Below the pieces are notes generated by a model. That model did no database searches. It was not told where the DNA came from and worked only from the letters and a program-made list of their open reading frames with translations. DNA of 64,000 nucleotides from a virus: the IMG/VR virus record IMGVR_UViG_3300034152_000556, positions 44,709 through 108,708 of that record. One strand, given 5' to 3'. A program made the position numbers and the translations under genes. Shown piece after piece: positions 7,218 through 44,732 of the stretch (positions within the stretch are counted from its first letter, which is position 1; each line of letters begins with the position of its first letter).

Positions 7218-9843
7218 TCATTATCCTCCGAGAATCTACCGGATAGAATTCACTCATTTTCTCGTTTTGGGTGAACATACCTCTGAAGTTTGGTAATCCG
7301 GGTTGTAGGTCAACAATCAATTCTTTCTCTGACATTCTTGGTGGAAGAATGCCATGCGGTAGCGCGTAACTCTTAAACGTCTCATCAAACACAAAATAAT
7401 CATGTGCAAGATTTAGAACTGAACCTAGAGATGCACAGCGCGAATCACCAAGCTTGTTCTGAAAATACATATAATCATAATCTGACTTATATGGACCTCC
7501 AGTGATTTCAAAGACATCTCCTGGTTGTATTTTGATTTTGTTCATATCAAGTGGCACATGCTGCGTCTTTTGCCATGTCTTTGTACCCATTCGCATCTTT
7601 GTGAAGTTTGCAATCACATCTTCAGCCCAAAGAGTCAAACCATTTGAGCAAAGTACAAGGGGTTCGTCGCAGCCTGTATCTGTGATAAATCCAATGATGA
7701 TATTAACATCAGTTTTCGGGAAGTTTTGAATATCATCAACTTTTGCTTTTATTTTCATGCCTGTTTGTAGGGTCTTGTATTTTGTTTTAACGTGTCTTAC
7801 TGCCCCCACATCTATATAGCTTTTGTTGCCTTTGATATAGACTTTTTCTGATAACTTTCCGTCTTTGTCTTGCAGAATAAACGAAACAGTTTGCAATTCA
7901 TCGTTGACTTTGAATCCCATGATAGTTTTTATCTTCAACATTTCAAGCGGCGTTTCCCAGTTTGCACAGACCACTCGATCACCAACTTCAAATTTAATAT
8001 CTCCATCGAAGCTTGGTATGTTGAGTTTGCTACCATCTATCCATTGTCGTGTAATGCTTGTGAAAGGCACATCTGCTAAACCAGCATTGTGATTGATGTA
8101 AAAACCATCTGGTGAAGCATATGCAACAAGAACTTCTTTTTTGTGTGAATCTGTTACCGATTTAATAGCTCTTAGCTTATAGTATCGGTTGCCAACTCTG
8201 AATGGCATATTATCTATTTTTTTCAACTTGTTTAGTTGTAGATATGTCACGGTATCTTGATTTTTTGGATCTAGAATATCAATACCACCGTTTTCATTTT
8301 TGAAACGATAAATTAAATCACCAGATGGTGAAACATCTAAATCAACAAATTCTAGATTTTTGAAAGTGCTGACAATTGATGTTGATGTTAAAGTGTCGTA
8401 GTGTTTTCCAGCGTCAAATGAGAGGCAATACTTTTTTCCTGGTTTTATCAAGCGACCGAAAAGTTTTGGTTTTTCAACATTGTACTTCTCGATCTCAAGA
8501 CCATCAACAGCGGTAAAGTACTCATCACCTAAGCGAAACTCAGGTACGCCATTGAACTCTCGAATTGATATTAGCTTTTTAAATAGGGGTTTCTGGCTTA
8601 CTGCGGTTTTGACAGTAACGATATCACCAATAGTTAGCTTCTTACCATTGTATTTGATATTTGCTTTTTCTTGCCTTGTCTTCATTTCTTCGAGAATTTT
8701 ATCTTTGAGTTTCTTCGTAAGCTGTATCATGCGATATTCTCCATTTGGTTTTTCATATCGCATGTGAGATATATTGGGTGTTCTTGCAGATGATAGAAAT
8801 GATACCACTCTAACTTCTTGATTTTTATGAGTGAAGGTGTCTCCCGGATATAGAAGAAACATCCCATTGCTATCAAGATGTACAACTGCCGATGCGTTTT
8901 CTTTCAATGGCTGTGGTTTTGTATCATCGGTGATTTCATCTGATGAGAAACTAGTTTTGAAGAATGTTGTAATTCTTGATATATCAGCAGATACGCTAGA
9001 ATTTAGACTTATATTACGACCACTATTAAGCGTGTATTTGATAGCTGCACCGAGAGTTGCTTTTTTTGCCAACAGCCACCTGACTTTAAATATAAACATT
9101 GGGTCGTTGATGGTTCGATGTGCCCACTCTATCGGATTTGAGACATACGGTGTCTTTGCTTGATGATATCGATTTGGGTTATACATATAGTCCGAGTTAA
9201 ATTCGTTGTTCCAGAAAAAGTGCATATAATTTTGAATGAACACTGCAACGTTTGGATAGTTCGAACCCATACCATCACCTAGACAGCACCATAGACCATC
9301 GTTTAGATTTGGAAGATTGGCATAAAACATCGGGTCACCCATGCCCATTACTGGCGCTGGTCTGAAATAAACGGTAGAACCACGATAACGGTTGTTTGAA
9401 TCAACAATAACAATATGGATGATATATGGAAATGCAAAGTTGATTGTATGTAGTTCTCGTGAGCCGCCTTTGCTATCGAAGTGTTTATCAATCACATCTT
9501 TCCACTCATCATACATTCCACGGTCTCGTGCGTCTTTAATTTCATTTGCAAAGTTTCTACGCATGTTGACTGTTCTAATTGCTGGTTGTTCTTCGATAAC
9601 AACACACTTATTTCCGTGCATATCTTCATATATGTAGCGACAGTTCATGGGAAGGATACCATCGTAGGTAAACTCTCTTGTTGTTAGCCTCTTCTGTAAT
9701 TGGTTCAGAAGAATATTTGTTGGAATTATACCTTTCGTAATTTTTGCTTTTGGGTCTTTCCAACTTTCATCTCTATATTTATCTGGAATTTCGCTGCCGT
9801 ATAGAACGGCGTACTTCTTGTTCAGCCGAATCTCTTCGATCAT
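7210..9843 (-). CDS. Large E2-like protein with long beta-rich C-terminal extension (877 aa)
   Basis: The N-terminal quarter carries an E2/RWD-like core. Strands near residues 137-160 are followed by a Pro-rich turn and LPNLNDGLWCCLG (C186/C187), the layout of the E2 catalytic flap seen in PRTRC-B-like proteins. A helix with FFWNNEFN follows. Residues about 300-877 contain repeated short beta modules with 'PGD' turns (YPGDTF, QPGDVF, KPGKKY, EVGDRV), suggesting a row of SH3-like barrels that may bind the target or a virion component. It lies directly upstream of the JAMM gene with an overlap. The size is far beyond any usual E2. The E2 call is motif- and context-based; a structural protein with a fortuitous motif remains possible. 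Confidence 0.6.
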   Translation of the reverse strand: MIEEIRLNKKYAVLYGSEIPDKYRDESWKDPKAKITKGIIPTNILLNQLQKRLTTREFTYDGILPMNCRYIYEDMHGNKCVVIEEQPAIRTVNMRRNFANEIKDARDRGMYDEWKDVIDKHFDSKGGSRELHTINFAFPYIIHIVIVDSNNRYRGSTVYFRPAPVMGMGDPMFYANLPNLNDGLWCCLGDGMGSNYPNVAVFIQNYMHFFWNNEFNSDYMYNPNRYHQAKTPYVSNPIEWAHRTINDPMFIFKVRWLLAKKATLGAAIKYTLNSGRNISLNSSVSADISRITTFFKTSFSSDEITDDTKPQPLKENASAVVHLDSNGMFLLYPGDTFTHKNQEVRVVSFLSSARTPNISHMRYEKPNGEYRMIQLTKKLKDKILEEMKTRQEKANIKYNGKKLTIGDIVTVKTAVSQKPLFKKLISIREFNGVPEFRLGDEYFTAVDGLEIEKYNVEKPKLFGRLIKPGKKYCLSFDAGKHYDTLTSTSIVSTFKNLEFVDLDVSPSGDLIYRFKNENGGIDILDPKNQDTVTYLQLNKLKKIDNMPFRVGNRYYKLRAIKSVTDSHKKEVLVAYASPDGFYINHNAGLADVPFTSITRQWIDGSKLNIPSFDGDIKFEVGDRVVCANWETPLEMLKIKTIMGFKVNDELQTVSFILQDKDGKLSEKVYIKGNKSYIDVGAVRHVKTKYKTLQTGMKIKAKVDDIQNFPKTDVNIIIGFITDTGCDEPLVLCSNGLTLWAEDVIANFTKMRMGTKTWQKTQHVPLDMNKIKIQPGDVFEITGGPYKSDYDYMYFQNKLGDSRCASLGSVLNLAHDYFVFDETFKSYALPHGILPPRMSEKELIVDLQPGLPNFRGMFTQNEKMSEFYPVDSRRIMNV

Positions 9844-23384: not shown

Positions 23385-23556
23385 CGTCTCCTCCGCCTTT
23401 TTCATTTTCTTCGTACCGGTAATATTCCGGTAACACTACTAGGCTCCAAAACACTAAAAAAATGCTTATTCCAAGCATTATCCACGAACTCCATTTGCCA
23501 GCAAAGGGTATCATAATCCCTGAAATGACTAATAACACTTTCTGTTCTTTTTTCAT
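23368..23556 (-). CDS. Small membrane protein (62 aa)
   Basis: The chosen ATG (23554-23556) overlaps the VWA gene stop as ATGA. The protein has one or two hydrophobic segments (VLLVISGIMIPFAG and WIMLGISIFLVFWSLVV) and a charged Gly-rich tail. It follows a MoxR ATPase and VWA pair, so it may anchor that machine in the membrane. This is context inference; the protein itself is unrecognised. Confidence 0.65.
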   Translation of the reverse strand: MKKEQKVLLVISGIMIPFAGKWSSWIMLGISIFLVFWSLVVLPEYYRYEENEKGGGDDGKNI

Positions 23557-24818
23557 ACATGTACAACATACCCTGTTTTGTTTACCATATCTGCTGAGCC
23601 AGAGACGACCCAAATGATTTTCTTGGGCATCTTTTTTCTGGGGTGTGCATTGATGTCTTCGCAACCACCATCCGTGAAGAATAAGGTTACATCAGGGTTG
23701 CCTTTTTTAGATTCTTCAAGCGCTGGAAAAAGCACGGTTCCACCACCGCCTTTCGGCTTGAAGTTGATGTCTTTAACTTTCTTACAGTCATAAACATTAT
23801 TAACTTCTGCATCACATTCAATTACTCGTGTTTTTGTGTAACGATCTTTCTCGATAATATGTTTTATACCAGACAGACCTTCACGAACTTCTTCTGGTGT
23901 CATACTACCAGATGTATCAATACACACATCAATTTTGAATGTGAAGTCTCTAGATTTACCGGGAAATGGTGAAATGAGCGGTAAGTTTTCAATCGGTGTA
24001 CATGTGAAAGCATACATTCTTTTACGATTGATTCTTACGTGTGCTCTTTTCCATTTTGCATATCTTGTTCCTTTTACAAGCTTTTTTATCAATTGATAGT
24101 ATGGCACTTTCGGCGGCCCGAGTGCTTCCTCAATCAATCTTGCAATATGAGCTGGTAAGTTACCTCGGTCTTTATTGAATCTTTTGACAGACTCTTTAAC
24201 AAGAGATTTGATGTGGCTGTCAACCTTTCTTGCTAAAGAACTGGTGTCTGAAACACCAGCTGTATTTTTCCAGCCTTCGTGACTATCAAAACCACCATCT
24301 AAAGGTATTGGAACTTTCTTTGCTTTTTTCAGAAGTTCCCAATAATACCATTCTGTCACTTTTTCCGGTGGTAGCTCATATTGTTCTGGAAGTTGTGGGG
24401 GCCATTCTTTACCATTTATCATTAATGGGTTCTTTAATCCTATTTGTTGATTCACGGCGCAATCAGCGGCAATGTTAAATATGTCAATACGACTTTGTGT
24501 TTCTAGAGGGTGTCTACCTATAGATTCGTTTGCAATGATTCTTATACATCTTGGCAAATGCTTATTAAGCAAATGCATACCTTCATGCTCGATTACTTTA
24601 ATGAGATTGTTATCATCAGTTCCCGCCACCAATGTTGGTTCGTAACATAATGTGATAGACCCATCAGAAGGTTCTACTTGAACACCCATAATTGATTTGT
24701 AGCCGGGAACCGCTCTACGTCTTACTTGGGAGAATAAGTACCCCCAATAATTGTATTTCAACACAAATCGAGCAACGAGCTTTTTTATTCTTTCTGGGTC
24801 ATGCAGTGGCGTTATCAT
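23553..24818 (-). CDS. VWA/metallopeptidase-like protein of the MoxR-VWA type (421 aa)
   Basis: The N-terminal half resembles the putative metallopeptidase domain found with DUF2201-type VWA proteins. It includes HEGMH (an HExxH zinc motif) near residue 88-92 and a later NIAADCAVNQ segment. The C-terminal third is a VWA-like domain with a MIDAS DTSGSM motif. Such proteins act with MoxR AAA ATPases, encoded here directly upstream with a 4-base overlap, as metal-insertion or complex-remodelling chaperones. The phage target is unknown. The close pairing and the small membrane protein after it suggest a three-gene module. Confidence 0.85.
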   Translation of the reverse strand: MITPLHDPERIKKLVARFVLKYNYWGYLFSQVRRRAVPGYKSIMGVQVEPSDGSITLCYEPTLVAGTDDNNLIKVIEHEGMHLLNKHLPRCIRIIANESIGRHPLETQSRIDIFNIAADCAVNQQIGLKNPLMINGKEWPPQLPEQYELPPEKVTEWYYWELLKKAKKVPIPLDGGFDSHEGWKNTAGVSDTSSLARKVDSHIKSLVKESVKRFNKDRGNLPAHIARLIEEALGPPKVPYYQLIKKLVKGTRYAKWKRAHVRINRKRMYAFTCTPIENLPLISPFPGKSRDFTFKIDVCIDTSGSMTPEEVREGLSGIKHIIEKDRYTKTRVIECDAEVNNVYDCKKVKDINFKPKGGGGTVLFPALEESKKGNPDVTLFFTDGGCEDINAHPRKKMPKKIIWVVSGSADMVNKTGYVVHV

Positions 24819-26047
24819 CTATTTCTTCCTACAGCAACAAGTGGCTCATAGAACAATTTTTTCCACTTGTCAGATTTCTTCATCATGATAACGTGAATGT
24901 CAGTCATATACTTGAACTCTTCTGATGTTCGTGAGTATCCATCGATCATGGTCACGAACAAGGCCGTTGTATCAACAGGCATCATCAGCATAAAGTCTTC
25001 AATGTTTTTAAGATGACGATCTTCATATTTTGGTCTGGAAGTCAACATGAACATTGTAAACCCTGTCATCAGCTGAGCTACTCTGTCCATTTCTTTCGCT
25101 TTCAGAATTGCTTCGATCTTTGGTTTGACCTCATCAAATTTATAGAACACATCTTTTGGATTGATGTCTTTTTTATCTTTTGCGAATGAGATAAACATTC
25201 TTGTCATATGAGTGTTGATGAGACCAGCAGCGATTGTTTCAATGTCGTCAAAATGATTTTCAACACCGCCATTCGCTTCGAATTTTTTCAAATGATCAGA
25301 CAGCTTTTCATAACTGGCTGGGTTGGCAAATACAGAACCAACTCGTTGAGCATCGAAGTCATAGATATATTCTGGGTGTGTTTGAATAAACTCAACAACA
25401 AATGGGTGAAAGTTTTGCTCTACGGCATACTTTAAGAAGTCTAGAGCACTCACTTCAGTAAAGATATGCAAATGACGACGAAGACCAGCAGCGTCTTCCA
25501 TTGTATCCATCTGATACTCTGCATCATCTGGATTGTCAGTTGATACAACAAACCAACCTTCAGGAAATGCATAGTTGTGAACGGCATATTCATTCTGAAC
25601 TTGCCAAAGCAATTGCTGAAGATTGTGATCTGCTCTTGAAAATTCGTCAATGACAAAGAGACCATACTTTGAATCTCTTCGGGGTACAAAGTCCGAATAG
25701 AGCATATTGAATCGACCTGTCATTTGAAACTTATCGGTTAGAACTGGGTAAGGTGTTAGAAAATCATCTCTGGATAGAACCGGACCTTTGATCATGATCA
25801 TTTCAAATGGCAATTTTAACTCTTCTGCAAGTTCAGCCGTTAGTTGCCCACATATTTGTGTTTTACCAACACCAGCAGGTCCGATGATGTGGAAAGCCTG
25901 TCGCTGCACAGGAATTCGCTTTTGCCAAGCATTAATCGTATTTCGGAAGTCTGTTTTGATTAACTCTTTAATCTTTCCTATTGAAAGTGTGGGTATGTCA
26001 AGTCTTTCATGGTATTTTAATTCTTCTTGTTTTGTTCCTTCGGTCAT
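24815..26047 (-). CDS. MoxR-family AAA+ ATPase (410 aa)
   Basis: AAA+ ATPase with Walker A GPAGVGKT near residues 56-63, Walker B LFVIDEFSRAD and sensor-1 VSTDNPDD. The family works with VWA-domain partners, and the next gene is one. The ATG at 26045-26047 was chosen because AGGAGAG lies six bases upstream. A longer frame to 26131 would run through a strong hairpin at 26074-26096. Confidence 0.9.
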   Translation of the reverse strand: MTEGTKQEELKYHERLDIPTLSIGKIKELIKTDFRNTINAWQKRIPVQRQAFHIIGPAGVGKTQICGQLTAELAEELKLPFEMIMIKGPVLSRDDFLTPYPVLTDKFQMTGRFNMLYSDFVPRRDSKYGLFVIDEFSRADHNLQQLLWQVQNEYAVHNYAFPEGWFVVSTDNPDDAEYQMDTMEDAAGLRRHLHIFTEVSALDFLKYAVEQNFHPFVVEFIQTHPEYIYDFDAQRVGSVFANPASYEKLSDHLKKFEANGGVENHFDDIETIAAGLINTHMTRMFISFAKDKKDINPKDVFYKFDEVKPKIEAILKAKEMDRVAQLMTGFTMFMLTSRPKYEDRHLKNIEDFMLMMPVDTTALFVTMIDGYSRTSEEFKYMTDIHVIMMKKSDKWKKLFYEPLVAVGRNR

Positions 26048-26073
26048 TGAAACTCTCCTGGTAAATTGGTTGA

Positions 26074-26096
26074 GGCTCGGGTTTCCCACCCGAGCC
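26074..26096 (-). terminator. GC hairpin after the SSB-like gene
   Basis: Perfect 9-bp inverted repeat GGCTCGGGT/ACCCGAGCC with a 5-base loop in the 76-base gap between the SSB-like stop and the ATPase start. No T run follows on the minus strand, so partial termination or 3'-end stabilisation is more likely than full termination. It resembles the hairpin after the ubiquitin-like gene (4465-4490). Confidence 0.6.
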
Positions 26097-26123
26097 TTTC
26101 CGATTACGAGAACATCTTTAACA

Positions 26124-27089
26124 TTAGTCAAAACTTACGTCATCAAAACTGAAAGGTTTCGATTCGGGTTTTTGTGCAGGAGGCTCTTTCTTTGCTTCTT
26201 GTTGTGGTTCTGGATCGTCTTTCTTTTTCATATCGCTACCGTCTGCTGGTAGCATACCTTCTGTTCTTTTATCATCTCCGTAACCGCTTGTTGCTTGTTT
26301 TCTTTGAGACCAATCGAATTTTTCATTGAATTTGGAAAGAGTCTTTTTAGAAACTTGAAGAACATCTTTCACGAAGTCTGTACTTAACTCATTTCCCCTT
26401 GTCATAATGAAAACTTTCTTTGGTCCGAATTGTGAGCCTTCTTCACCAATTGTTATATTTGTAACAAATCTCTTGTTATTTACAACTTTCTTTTCAAACT
26501 CAAGGGATTGTTCTGTGGGTGGTGTGAATATTGGATCTAACTCAAGTCGATACATCTCACCAAGATAATCAGACACATTTTTATATTTCATGCCTTTTCC
26601 ACGAATAAATACAAAGAGTGGTTTTCTTTCTTCGGTGAGGATGGGGTTACCGGCTTTGTCACAATAAATACCAGCAACCAGCAAGTGATTACGACAGGGA
26701 GAACAGAAATCGTTTGCTGCACGTTCTACGGAGTTTGCGGGGCATTCTCTTTGTTTGCCACTATCCAGTTTTGTTGTTCCGTAGAATGGGGGCGAACCGG
26801 CCTTGTAAGAAAAGCATTCGATGCTCTCTCTCTGTCCTTTTGCTGCTGGTTTGACTTTTACATTGACATCTTTAACGTGAATAATGATCATATTCACTTG
26901 TTGAAGATTGTACTCGACGCCACGAATCTGAAGGTTTCCAGCTTGCTCTTGTACGCCAGCCTGATTTGTTCGTGTTATACCAGCAATATAGACGCTGTGA
27001 AAAAACTCATCTTCTGGTGACATCGGTTCTGGTGCTGAGTGGCTGGTCTGTGCAAGATCAGCATACTCATCAAGGTTAAAATCATTCAT
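26124..27089 (-). CDS. Single-stranded DNA-binding-like protein (321 aa)
   Basis: Probable replication SSB. The central region is beta-rich with a cysteine set (RECPANSVERAANDFCSPC) that could bind zinc, as in T4 gp32. The C-terminus is a Pro/Glu/Lys-rich linker ending in an acidic aromatic tip (KPFSFDDVSFD) like the partner-binding tail of SSB proteins. No clear family motif beyond this was seen, so the assignment rests on architecture and the replication context. The GC hairpin after it would fit a highly expressed gene. Confidence 0.6.
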   Translation of the reverse strand: MNDFNLDEYADLAQTSHSAPEPMSPEDEFFHSVYIAGITRTNQAGVQEQAGNLQIRGVEYNLQQVNMIIIHVKDVNVKVKPAAKGQRESIECFSYKAGSPPFYGTTKLDSGKQRECPANSVERAANDFCSPCRNHLLVAGIYCDKAGNPILTEERKPLFVFIRGKGMKYKNVSDYLGEMYRLELDPIFTPPTEQSLEFEKKVVNNKRFVTNITIGEEGSQFGPKKVFIMTRGNELSTDFVKDVLQVSKKTLSKFNEKFDWSQRKQATSGYGDDKRTEGMLPADGSDMKKKDDPEPQQEAKKEPPAQKPESKPFSFDDVSFD

Positions 27090-28247: not shown

Positions 28248-29213
28248 TTACAGAACAATTGACATATAGACAGGTTCACCGTCTTGTTCGATGAGGTCAC
28301 CGCCCCCACCAGGAGTCTTAATCATCTTGACCGACACATTTCCATCTCTGTCAAGCTGGCTTACGTTGCTGACATCGATAGAGTTAAGCATTGGCAAGAT
28401 GCTTTCTTGAACCGTAGTTGAGAAGTCTTCAAGAATTTCTTTGACCTCTTCTGGTGTAGCGTCTGATGGAATGCTCGGAAGCACCAGAGCAGACTCTTGT
28501 AGACGACCCGATTTCTTCAAACGAATCATCTCAGCACCATAACAACCACGAATCAATAGTTGCCAATAACGCTGCCAATGCTCTTGCGATGGCATGATCT
28601 CCAAACCAACCGGTACGCCGCCGAACATAATCAGCGCACCAATCTGGCCCGGTACTGGCTCGAATTCAGCCGCAAACTCTTCAAGAGCTTCACGAATTTC
28701 TGGTCTGTCGTAGAAGTCACGTAGGTGTCCACGCGCACGACCACGAAAACCTGGAATTGAACCGATCCAGCGTGTGATACGATCCCAAAGCTTGCCATAG
28801 TCACTCTTTTGACGGAATTGACGATTCAGAAAAGCCTTTCTCAGTTCAACCGGTAGGATATCGTACTCGTTATCCTCACCTCTCAGATAGCCACCCTGAG
28901 ACGCTTCGATACAACATGCATTGTCGAAACGTTTGGTTTTCTTTGCTGAAACAACACCGCTTCCGCTCATAGCATGGTCTTGTGCGCCTTTTCCACGCAC
29001 CATGATGTTTGTAGGGATAATGGCAGGACGCTCAGGATCTTCGTTCTTGAACTCCATCGTACCGTAGTTTGTCGTTCTTTCGAACTTCAAAGAGGATGGC
29101 GATGCTACATTACCCCTCGCATCACCAACAATCGGTACAACAGTCATCTCGTTGACGATCTGAGCTTCGCCAACACCGATGTTATTGAATCTGAATTTCT
29201 CGAAGATTTTCAT
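28248..29213 (-). CDS. ARPP-1/DUF6569-like protein (321 aa)
   Basis: The N-terminal strand pattern FNNIGVGEAQIVNEMTVVPI, the central IPTNIMVRGKGAQDHAMSGS and the CCIEASQGGYLR segment fit, from memory, the ARPP-1 fold (DUF6569), found next to RNA-repair and TROVE genes. It has no known enzymatic motif. It follows the Ro60/TROVE gene by 4 bases with its own GGAGG site, so the two are surely co-expressed. Like the TROVE gene it is more GC-rich than most of the window. The family call is moderately secure and the biochemical role is unknown. Confidence 0.65.
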   Translation of the reverse strand: MKIFEKFRFNNIGVGEAQIVNEMTVVPIVGDARGNVASPSSLKFERTTNYGTMEFKNEDPERPAIIPTNIMVRGKGAQDHAMSGSGVVSAKKTKRFDNACCIEASQGGYLRGEDNEYDILPVELRKAFLNRQFRQKSDYGKLWDRITRWIGSIPGFRGRARGHLRDFYDRPEIREALEEFAAEFEPVPGQIGALIMFGGVPVGLEIMPSQEHWQRYWQLLIRGCYGAEMIRLKKSGRLQESALVLPSIPSDATPEEVKEILEDFSTTVQESILPMLNSIDVSNVSQLDRDGNVSVKMIKTPGGGGDLIEQDGEPVYMSIVL

Positions 29214-29217
29214 AAGT

Positions 29218-30756
29218 TTATCCTCCTATAAGCTTTCGATATTTACTGACCAAAAGTTTTCTGACCATACCTGTATTTTCAATCATACGATTGAAGATCA
29301 GCTCGGTCTCCAAGTACTTGTAGTTTTCGACAGGCATTGGGTCTACACCTTCAGCCAGCTTTCTGCCAGTTCCCTTTTTCGCATCAGCGGAAAACACAGG
29401 GTTAATATGGAGAAGTTCAAACTCGTACCCTGTGTCTTGGAAATGTTGATAAGCTTTGTCAAACATTCCCTTTACGGCGTTTTCGTAACCGTCTGAAAAT
29501 ACGACGATCTTTTTGGCTCCTGTTAGAACAGCGTCTACCAAGCCTCTCCATAGAGGTGAACCACCAGCAGGGTAAACCACTTGATGTGACCCTTCTTTAA
29601 TCACCGCTCCACCAACATAGATTATGTCTTTCACGTTATCCAATGTTGATATAATTGAAAGCGATGTCAAAAATGGGTGCAGTGGTCTTTCCTTACTACC
29701 TTGCATCGAGTGCGAAGCATCGAGAATACATACACATTCACCAATGTCGATCTTATCGATCTTTGCACCTTGCTTGTCGATTGCATCAGAGACTTTGTCG
29801 AGGTCTTTCTTTCCACCGTTTGCAATCTGATGGTAGAAGTACTTCCACAAATCGTACAAGTCCTGTTTTTCATAATCGACTTTCACTTTGGCTCCGGCCT
29901 TCTTGCTTGCTGTTTGCATTTGCAGCTTTTCACGATCACTCATTTTTGATTTTTCGTATACATCTTTCAAAGGTATGTTCACTTTGTAAAGGTTACGAAA
30001 ACCAACAACGGTTCTCATAGGCATACCCTTCATAAGGGTTCGAAATGCATCGACATCGTTGGCGATTGCTGCCTGTTTAAGCTTTTGGTATTGATCTATT
30101 TTTGGATAGTGGTAGGTGATATCACTAGCAACCGTATCCACGCCAAACAGATGCCACATGACAGGCTGTGCGCCACTTTGATAACGACCGATGTACTTTC
30201 TGAACAAGGCTTCGTCTCCATTCAGAACTTTGAACAGTGTTTGTTTGCCAAGGGCATGTCTCACGAGACGTTTCATTTTACCCTTGTAGTTCACTGCCAG
30301 TGCATCGGTTTCTTTTGGCGGACGGTTGAAAATGTACTCAAGAATCAACTTACGTGTACGAGCGTTGTTGACTCTCTTTGCGTTTGAGTCCGCACCAGCC
30401 AGAATCAGAAGGTTTTTCATAGCGTCTGGCACTTTTTCTTTGGCAAGATTGTGGTAGATGACCCTGCGTTCAAAATCAGAATCGAGCAGTGTGTCTTCAA
30501 CAACCAAATCTTTACCGGAACCCGTTGGCGCAGGGTTCGACAAGAGCATATGTGTCATCATACCCTTGCTGAATCGCGTTCCGTTCAACAGCATGGTCAG
30601 AGCGAACAGCACACGGTCATACTGAAACAACCCGTTCCACATCTCAAAAACACGATTGAATTGCGCGTCTTTTCCTTCGTAATAGGCTCCCTTCGGTACG
30701 TATTGAAGGATTCCACTGTCAATCTTTGTAACTGATTTTGTCACTGATTTCGCCAT
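29218..30756 (-). CDS. Ro60/Rsr-like TROVE-VWA RNA-binding protein (512 aa)
   Basis: Homologue of Ro60: an N-terminal alpha-helical HEAT-like TROVE ring (about residues 30-330) followed by a VWA domain with the MIDAS motif DASHSMQGS near residue 350 and a downstream VVFSDGYEN. Bacterial Ro60/Rsr binds Y RNAs on its outer surface and helps in RNA decay, quality control or repair. Length is typical of the family. It starts behind AGAGGAGG. It lies directly downstream of about 0.9 kb of structured RNA that includes four tRNA-like units, the arrangement expected of a Ro60/Y-RNA locus. No RtcB ligase was seen in this window. Confidence 0.9.
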   Translation of the reverse strand: MAKSVTKSVTKIDSGILQYVPKGAYYEGKDAQFNRVFEMWNGLFQYDRVLFALTMLLNGTRFSKGMMTHMLLSNPAPTGSGKDLVVEDTLLDSDFERRVIYHNLAKEKVPDAMKNLLILAGADSNAKRVNNARTRKLILEYIFNRPPKETDALAVNYKGKMKRLVRHALGKQTLFKVLNGDEALFRKYIGRYQSGAQPVMWHLFGVDTVASDITYHYPKIDQYQKLKQAAIANDVDAFRTLMKGMPMRTVVGFRNLYKVNIPLKDVYEKSKMSDREKLQMQTASKKAGAKVKVDYEKQDLYDLWKYFYHQIANGGKKDLDKVSDAIDKQGAKIDKIDIGECVCILDASHSMQGSKERPLHPFLTSLSIISTLDNVKDIIYVGGAVIKEGSHQVVYPAGGSPLWRGLVDAVLTGAKKIVVFSDGYENAVKGMFDKAYQHFQDTGYEFELLHINPVFSADAKKGTGRKLAEGVDPMPVENYKYLETELIFNRMIENTGMVRKLLVSKYRKLIGG

Positions 30757-30779: not shown

Positions 30780-31095
30780 TCGACGTAGGACCCTGATAGC
30801 CAATTTTTTCGGATGAAACAAAAATTAGCCATTCAGTCTTAGTCGAGTGAATGGTGGTAGGTGTGGCTCATTGATTATTAGTAAATCTGAAGCCACACCA
30901 AGTCCATAAACTAAGACGACATCAATTCGTGATAGAAGGTCGCGGAGACGCTTAGCGACTCCCCACCATCTTCACGGTCAACGCCGCCGTGCATACTGGT
31001 GTGGGGTGAGGTGAGTGTACCTCACAGGACGCCGTGCTAATCTAGCGTTGGCGCCCAGTGCAAACCTGAGCGGAAGATACACTCAGTCACCCCGA
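30780..31095 (-). ncRNA. Structured non-coding RNA between the tRNA-like array and the TROVE gene
   Basis: This stretch has no supported protein but several exact inverted repeats. A 9-bp stem GGTGTGGCT/AGCCACACC (30860-30868 with 30891-30899) is enclosed by a 7-bp helix (30836-30842 with 30911-30917). The enclosing helix competes with, or forms a pseudoknot with, a 6-bp hairpin at 30830-30853. Further stems are at 30939-30959 (GTCGC/GCGAC) and 31006-31025 (GTGAGGT/ACCTCAC). GC content is above the local average. It may be a fifth, larger RNA partner of the TROVE protein or a long leader controlling it. It does not show the core motifs of RNase P RNA or tmRNA that I looked for. Confidence 0.5.
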
Positions 31096-31102
31096 GAAGT
31101 AA

Positions 31103-31229
31103 GCGAGAGTAGCAATGTAGCGTGTTGTGTTTGACCATCCCCCCGTAGGTGGGGGGAGTAGGACTCGAACCTACAGTGTCATGCTCCCAATGCATGTGTC
31201 TTTTCCTGAAACCACATTAAGTCTCTCGC
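31103..31229 (-). ncRNA. tRNA-like RNA unit A, circularly permuted tRNA-Pro(UGG)-like body in a closing helix
   Basis: Ends pair perfectly (GCGAGAG/CTCTCGC), followed by a 4x4 internal loop (ACTT/GCTA) and a second helix (AATGTGG/CTACATT with one wobble). Inside, in transcribed order, are the 3' half of a D arm, an anticodon arm (CATGC/GCATG, loop ATTGGGA, anticodon UGG) and a perfect T arm (GTAGG, TTCGAGT, CCTAC). Then come TCCCCCC, a 6-base linker ACCTAC, GGGGGGA and the 5' half of a D arm (GTC, matching GAC). The acceptor stem is thus perfect but its 5' strand follows its 3' strand, which is a permuted tRNA. The D loop is joined to the closing helix. A Y-RNA-like partner of the TROVE protein is the favoured reading. 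Confidence 0.65.
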
Positions 31230-31263: not shown

Positions 31264-31271
31264 TTTAATAA

Positions 31272-31367
31272 GGGAGATAGAATATGTAGCTTGTGTGATA
31301 CTTGTACCTGTCAATGGTAGGTACGAGAGTTACAGTCTCGTTATCTGAAACTACATAAAGTTCTCCC
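31272..31367 (-). ncRNA. tRNA-like RNA unit B, Tyr(GUA)-like anticodon arm in a closing helix
   Basis: Closed by GGGAGA/TCTCCC, an internal loop, and ATGTAG/CTACAT, followed by the TTTC shared with the other units. Inside is an anticodon-type arm (CGAGA/TCTCG, loop CTGTAAC, anticodon GUA) and a second hairpin (TACCT/AGGTA) that could be the long variable arm of a tRNA-Tyr. A short helix GATA/TATC joins them. A D arm and a standard TTCRANY T arm are not evident, so it is the most degenerate member and cannot be a standard tRNA. Confidence 0.5.
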
Positions 31368-31377
31368 GAAAAAACAA

Positions 31378-31481
31378 AGTGGAGTAGCAATGTACTAAGA
31401 TGGGACTTGAACCCACAACATACTGTTTATAAGACAGTTGCTCTACCAGTTGAGCTACGGAAAGCACATTTAGTCTCCACT
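31378..31481 (-). ncRNA. tRNA-like RNA unit C, Ile(UAU)-like body lacking a matched acceptor stem
   Basis: Closed by AGTGGAG/CTCCACT, a 4x4 internal loop (ACTA/GCTA) and AATGTGCT/AGTACATT. Inside is a nearly canonical tRNA body: TA-GCTC-AACTGGTA-GAGC D arm, anticodon arm ACTGT/ACAGT with loop CTTATAA (anticodon UAU) and T arm GTGGG, TTCAAGT, CCCAT. The bases that should form the 7-bp acceptor stem do not pair with each other. The closing helix takes that place, so ordinary aminoacylation looks impossible unless the ends are remodelled. TTTTTT follows the unit. Confidence 0.6.
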
Positions 31482-31489
31482 GAAAAAAG

Positions 31490-44702: not shown

Positions 44703-44732
44703 AAAAATAGCGGGGTTCTGAACCCCGCTATT
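44701..44732 (-). terminator. Intrinsic terminator after the 472-aa gene
   Basis: Stem AATAGCGGGGTT/AACCCCGCTATT with a 3-base loop, followed on the minus strand by TTTTT. It begins 4 bases after the stop of the gene at 44737-46155. It is the clearest factor-independent terminator in the window and marks a boundary between the virion block and the polymerase unit. Confidence 0.9.

Follow-up and report, generated by a model that had tools for sequence, protein, structure and literature searches.

A stretch of viral DNA of 64,000 nucleotides (positions 44,709 to 108,708 of the IMG/VR record IMGVR_UViG_3300034152_000556), hereafter called the window, encodes on its minus strand, at 31103..31229, a circularly permuted tRNA-Pro(UGG)-like element that we refer to as Y4. 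We propose, with a probability of roughly 0.8, that Y4 is a Y RNA with a tRNA-shaped, end-sealed head that is presented on a diverged Ro60 protein. The proposal draws on the anatomy of the unit, the array in which it lies, the Ro60 fold of the protein encoded next to the array, the conservation of this gene as one of a pair and the conservation of the closed acceptor stem, all of which the analysis shows.

Y RNAs are encoded beside Rsr genes. One of them, YrlA, mimics tRNA in a circularly permuted form, and DusA and TruB modify its D and T loops; in D. radiodurans, a Y RNA tethers Rsr to PNPase (PMC8394870, PMC11472068, PMC7790460). Some jumbo phages have been noted to carry TROVE proteins (PMC7824862, PMC7765460), whose cellular counterparts operate together with a tRNA-like partner (PMC7824862).

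Anatomy of Y4 and of its array

Read from 31229 down to 31103, the outer stem of Y4 begins with GCGAGAG and ends with CUCUCGC. The 5′ strand of the stem, GCGAGAG-ACUUA-AUGUGG, is followed by UUUCA and one half of a D arm, consisting of GG (tRNA positions 18 and 19), AAAA and GAC (23-25; 31200-31198), and then by A26. An anticodon arm comes next (CAUGC-AUUGGGA-GCAUG, with the anticodon UGG at 31189-31187), then ACACU and a T arm (GUAGG-UUCGAGU-CCUAC, 31174-31158). The acceptor 3′ strand UCCCCCC (31157-31151) leads through the linker ACCUAC (31150-31145), in which the CCA is incomplete and lacks its last base, to the acceptor 5′ strand GGGGGGA (31144-31138). U8, G9, GUC (10-12; 31135-31133), AA (13 and 14) and the 3′ strand of the stem, GCUACAU-UGCUA-CUCUCGC, complete the unit. 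The break separates the invariants U8 and A14 from G18G19 and A21, which fits a single tRNA interrupted in its D loop between positions 14 and 18. The T arm, acceptor strands, linker and split D arm listed in the preliminary description, which had given no strand, were all found at this location.

The same fold, including the GUC/GAC pair, was returned unaided by RNAfold (-47.0 kcal/mol, z -4.1), and 0/200 shuffled sequences folded as well. The closed acceptor stem UCCCCCC-ACCUAC-GGGGGGA (31138..31157, minus strand) forms 7/7 pairs; in shuffles of the 30 bases that follow the T arm, a 7-bp closure had a P of about 0.0025, and relatives carry compensating changes. Because the old tRNA ends are sealed into this hairpin, the Y4 RNA is not chargeable as it stands. 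A plain tRNA gene was rejected, as ARAGORN called no tRNA anywhere in the window, and the Rfam tRNA model gave Y4 25.9 bits, below its gathering score of 29.

Y4 is the fourth of six tandem units on the minus strand (31601-30849), an array that was absent from the preliminary description. The closing stem of these units, which the stem scan also found in Y4, is composed of a lower helix, an internal loop and an upper helix around AUGURG/YUACAU; the internal loop reads ACUNN on its 5′ side and mostly ends in UA on its 3′ side, and the upper helix is followed on the 5′ side by UUUC or CUUC. Y1 (31489..31601; scan score 18.5, z -4.4) and Y2 (31376..31483; z -3.7) carry, respectively, a Gly(GCC)-like and an Ile(UAU)-like tRNA body in normal order. 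The acceptor strands of Y2 are unpaired, and its Rfam tRNA score of 52.3 bits covers model positions 7-64 only. Y3 (31271..31369; scan score 21.0, z -4.7) has a Tyr(GUA)-like anticodon arm and a degenerate T arm. Y5 (31001..31095; scan score 19.0, z -5.2) bears a non-tRNA loop and Y6 (30849..30910; z -5.5) is a short terminal hairpin resembling the last array unit in relatives; neither has a tRNA body, yet both have the same kind of stem. As the stem is common to all the units, including those without a tRNA, it can be regarded as a module of its own with the tRNA as its cargo.

A strict scan for this stem identified three units in the region, compared to none in 98/100 and one in 2/100 shuffles, and together with the RNAfold z and the shuffling of the closure it rules out a chance fold for Y4. 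A relaxed unit scan also produced 0-2 matches per shuffled window region, and weaker rows in relatives were left uncounted. Promoter and terminator scans came out near the shuffle expectation and were unused as evidence. In bacterial Y RNAs in the broad sense, the two ends of the RNA pair into a long stem that carries a variable head, and the RNA gene lies beside a Ro60/Rsr gene. The six units have such a stem and such a neighbor, the latter recognized by the fold of the adjacent gene product and found in the same layout in relatives.

The adjacent Ro60-fold gene and its relatives

The gene adjoining the array (29218..30756, minus strand) encodes a 512-amino-acid protein that, in its predicted structure, is a Ro60-fold protein with a ring of alpha-helical repeats and a vWA domain. 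No sequence match was found in Pfam, PHROGs or the PDB (phmmer), and a hmmsearch with an 18-row profile of the family found no Ro60; the fold search alone revealed the relationship. The AlphaFold2 model built from the 18-row alignment had a predicted local distance difference test score (pLDDT) of 85.5 and a predicted template modeling score of 0.83, while a single-sequence model (pLDDT 36.8) was left unused. Foldseek returned ten significant PDB matches, all of them Ro60/TROVE proteins, including the Ro60 of Thermus phage phiLo and animal Ro60 with RNA. VIA gave a Z of 17.1 and 4.2 Å over 411 residues, nearly the full length, to the Ro60 structure 1yvp_B and a Z of 12.6 to D. radiodurans Rsr (2nvo), whereas the next rows, lone vWA domains, reached at most 10.5. 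The DxSxS motif of the metal ion-dependent adhesion site is present in the vWA domain, with D345, S347 and S349 invariant in 18 sequences. The second gene of the pair (28248..29213, minus strand) encodes an ARPP-1 protein (PF20208, 6.8e-25).

Relatives of the Ro60-like protein comprise 16 distinct viral sequences, L002 and L018 being one region. All 16 keep the Ro60-like/ARPP-1 gene pair and most have Y units upstream, as do some bacteria. A homologous open reading frame directly follows the Ro60-like gene in all the viral loci listed, and Pfam identified it as ARPP-1 in ten of the ten tested. The close relatives (38-57% identity; L001, L005, L006, L007, L008, L011 and L012) have comparable arrays just upstream, and arrays with a more drifted motif are found in distant phages (19-26%; L002/L018, L013, L016, L017, L019, L020, L021, L023 and L025). 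The motif has also drifted in the arrays of bacteria, namely the complete genome of Minicystis rosea (L031), the Deltaproteobacteria metagenome-assembled genomes (MAGs) L026 and L027, Pseudohongiella (L035) and Yinghuangia (L030), and of a Pacearchaeota MAG (L029). When the lower stem helix was located by sequence motifs blind to pairing, 105/126 pairs formed, versus 85.5 ± 3.3 with swapped partners.

In the bacterial relatives L026, L027, L031, L035, L037 and L039, the Ro60/ARPP-1 pair has 15-38 ordinary tRNA genes around it, encoded on its own strand, and the module gives the impression of residing in tRNA arrays.

Closed acceptors and stem positions

Permuted units with a closed acceptor number 19 in 13 genomes (the window, L005, L006, L007, L011, five in L016, L020, L021, two in L023, two in L026, L027, L031 and L035). 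Among 14 that were aligned, 94.9% of the cells pair and both sides have changed in each of the seven pairs; the covariation score was 0.92, versus 0.25 after shuffling and at most 0.24 with slid partners. These units were chosen for having the helix and the pairing percentage follows from that selection, so the evidence lies in the diversity of the sequences and in the recurrence of the closure at one and the same position behind the T arm. Scanning 231 T arms of the loci without selection gave 19 closed cases against 5.0 expected (maximum of 15 in 200 shuffles), although not all of these are Y units and some units found by hand fall outside its rule. The preliminary description would have been undermined by a 7-bp pairing not conserved in related phages; instead, it is conserved, with compensating changes across the relatives. 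A CCA stands exactly at positions 74-76 in 9/19 closed units (binomial tail 4e-12 at 1/64), including all five of L016, which form a row at 1808-2820, each with N73-CCA and then 6-8 bases before the acceptor 5′ strand. The presence of CCA at this place in nine units indicates that the tRNA bodies derive from CCA-coding tRNA genes.

In several closed units without CCA (window 31138-31157, L020, L026, L027 and L031), the linker ends in AC just before the 5′ strand. The AC-ending linkers are ACCUAC, AUAUAC, ACCUCAC, UCCUUAC, AACCAAC and ACUCUUAC, which perhaps form a structured loop.

Reading sequences and folds by eye, we distinguished about five points at which the stem is attached to the tRNA across the family: the acceptor end, the 8/9 junction, the D loop, position 26 and the variable arm. 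The stem is at the acceptor end of a tRNA in normal order in window Y1 and Y2, L006 565-640 (with ACCA), L007 3546, L011 3543 and 3696, L012 3711, L013, L017, L019, L021 1879 and L023 2008. It lies between the acceptor and the D arm, with the acceptor closed, in L005, L006 253-390 and L007 2778-2915, and between the D and anticodon arms, again with a closed acceptor, in L026, L027, L031 and L016 2675. Units with the stem at the variable arm (L011, L016 2325, L020, L021 2231 and L023 2153 and 2481) have the order T arm-acceptor-D arm-anticodon arm, and most of their bodies resemble class II tRNAs. In the D loop, the stem occurs with a closed acceptor in window Y4 and, in L021 3676-3812, L023 3765-3905 and L029 1-145, with ordinary tRNA ends outermost and the stem strands swapped in order. 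Judged by sequences and folds, Y4 and these three units are two openings of one ring, as circular permutation predicts.

Y4 resembles YrlA (RF02553; structure 6CU1) in having a basal stem formed by both ends, a tRNA-like head with a T arm, a D arm and a closed acceptor, a circularly permuted order with respect to tRNA and a location beside a Ro60 (Rsr) gene (PMC11472068, PMC8394870). The two differ in that the stem of YrlA replaces the anticodon arm, whereas Y4 keeps this arm and its stem leaves from the D loop. The order in Y4 is anticodon arm-T arm-acceptor, in contrast to T arm-acceptor-D arm in YrlA; in addition, the phage units are in tandem and some relatives keep CCA. YrlA could be a reduced form of the variable-arm type, as its Rfam consensus shows that order minus the anticodon arm.

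Ro60 proteins of phages and Y RNAs resembling tRNAs were already known. The window protein shares the full-length Ro60 fold with the Ro60/TROVE proteins of jumbo phages and of Thermus phage phiLo (9l5y, 9kop), but it has about 10-13% identity, lies outside the Pfam TROVE model and is paired with ARPP-1 and an array of Y RNAs. Provisionally, in a comparison that leaves the main Y RNA papers outside, we found no description of arrays beside a Ro60 family not covered by Pfam TROVE in which a stem is attached to tRNA at various points while anticodon arms and CCA are retained. While Y RNAs were previously known to copy tRNA in one way, that of YrlA, here one stem joins tRNA at about five places. 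Some units retain CCA and anticodon arms, and in matching pairs a single ring has its opening either at the stem or at the ends of the tRNA. Together, these arrangements offer intermediates for an origin of Y RNAs from tRNA genes. An unrecognized Ro60 family and ARPP-1 become tied to tRNA-like Y RNAs in phages and bacteria. The protein escapes automatic annotation by Pfam, and many of the RNAs escape ARAGORN and Rfam.

A tRNA mimic or a tRNA gene

Of the two possibilities raised in the preliminary description, that of a tRNA-shaped module with a closed acceptor on a closing helix gained support, as this helix is a conserved module found in every unit of the array and lies beside the Ro60-fold protein. 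The long basal stem would probably be the platform for that protein and display the tRNA-shaped head, which was probably derived from a tRNA-Pro gene by circular permutation, with the stem in the D loop and the RNA ends at the base of the stem. Y4 would be a full-length mimic that holds the shape of a tRNA, including the anticodon arm, on Ro60. By analogy with known Y RNAs, the stem would bind Ro60 and the head would engage some tRNA-recognizing factor.

Several observations weigh against this interpretation. The binding of the units to Ro60 and their task are inferences. The protein does not match the Pfam TROVE family (PF05731) and its assignment to Ro60 comes from the fold rather than the sequence; therefore, we speak of a diverged Ro60 fold that the curated family does not include. 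The Rfam YrlA model RF02553 has no match at its gathering score in the window or in the loci of 29 relatives, the only score, 17.6 bits, being at chance level and out of register. An identity with YrlA was rejected on this account and because the stem position and the order of the arms differ. Finally, the CCA in 9/19 closed units hints that some relatives may still yield a tRNA.

As to the task, our best guess, which is tentative, is that the units act as bait or sensors for enzymes that act on tRNA, chiefly the anticodon nucleases of the host. This choice would be favored by the fact that the window units keep anticodon arms while their acceptors are sealed or lost. Phage tRNAs that evade anticodon nucleases are known (PMC10264068), and competition of YrlA with an anticodon nuclease has been raised as a possibility (PMC7790460). 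The former likewise are phage-encoded tRNA shapes relevant to host defenses that cut tRNA, but they are intact tRNAs whereas the units described here would be closed mimics on a Ro60-linked stem, and the connection is an idea. The next choice, somewhat less likely, is a tether role of the Deinococcus type, by which PNPase or another nuclease would be brought to structured RNA. The question of what the tRNA mimic is for becomes testable.

The closed units that keep CCA might be a tRNA supply of phages and bacteria, in which sealed permuted tRNAs stored on Ro60 are shielded from charging and from end-targeting enzymes until the linker is opened when needed to produce a chargeable two-piece tRNA; we consider this unlikely. 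Slightly more doubtful is that Y4 itself operates as a two-piece tRNA, in which RNase P and a 3′ nuclease open the acceptor linker while the stem stays, so that the halves are held by the Y and acceptor stems and the tRNA could be charged. The exact position of the CCA and the regular spacing in L016 suit this pathway, but the CCA could be a mere relic of the source genes, in the window it has been lost (ACCUAC) and the acceptors of Y1-Y3 are unusable. It is also improbable that the units lack a function and are tRNA pseudogenes in decay, or hairpins formed by chance, within a tRNA cluster of the phage. The acceptor or T arms of Y1-Y3 are damaged and tRNA identities vary between phages, as expected from decay, but the closure is kept with compensating changes across 13 genomes, the folding z is -3.7 to -5.5 in all six units and divergent genomes have arrays upstream of the Ro60-like gene as well.

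The other possibility in the preliminary description, processing to a working tRNA-Pro by splicing, found no support. If Y4 were a genuine permuted tRNA gene of the kind known from red algae and some archaea, its stem would be cut, its ends joined across the D loop and its linker opened by RNase P and tRNase Z to give tRNA-Pro(UGG). Y4 does share with such genes a 3′ half that precedes the 5′ half, a short acceptor linker (6 bases; 7-74 nucleotides in algal genes) and the consensus bases, including U8, A14, G18G19, A21 and U33 (PMC3978253). A bulge-helix-bulge requires two 3-nucleotide bulges around a 4-bp helix (PMC3978253), but the predicted closing stem of Y4 has 7 bp, a 3x3 internal loop and 9 bp, with no such motif at the joint. 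Searches of the 108.7-kb record, itself a fragment, yielded no tRNA splicing endonuclease, RtcB or RNA ligase (PF01974, PF01139, PF09414). The long stem has a motif of its own, is conserved for itself, is common to units without a tRNA (Y5 and Y6) and lies next to Ro60. Considering the incomplete CCA, the acceptors of the sister units, the joint and the lack of processing enzymes in this fragment, the window unit was taken as a mimic, and a permuted gene is highly improbable.

Two further features were noticed near such gene pairs. At 23553-26131 of the window (minus strand), downstream of the Ro60/ARPP-1 pair by a few kb, genes for a vWA-like protein and a MoxR-type AAA ATPase, read from the sequence only, lie side by side. 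In L001, a long hairpin (7660-7774) follows the ARPP-1 gene, and several plant and animal microRNA models score there merely from the length of the hairpin.
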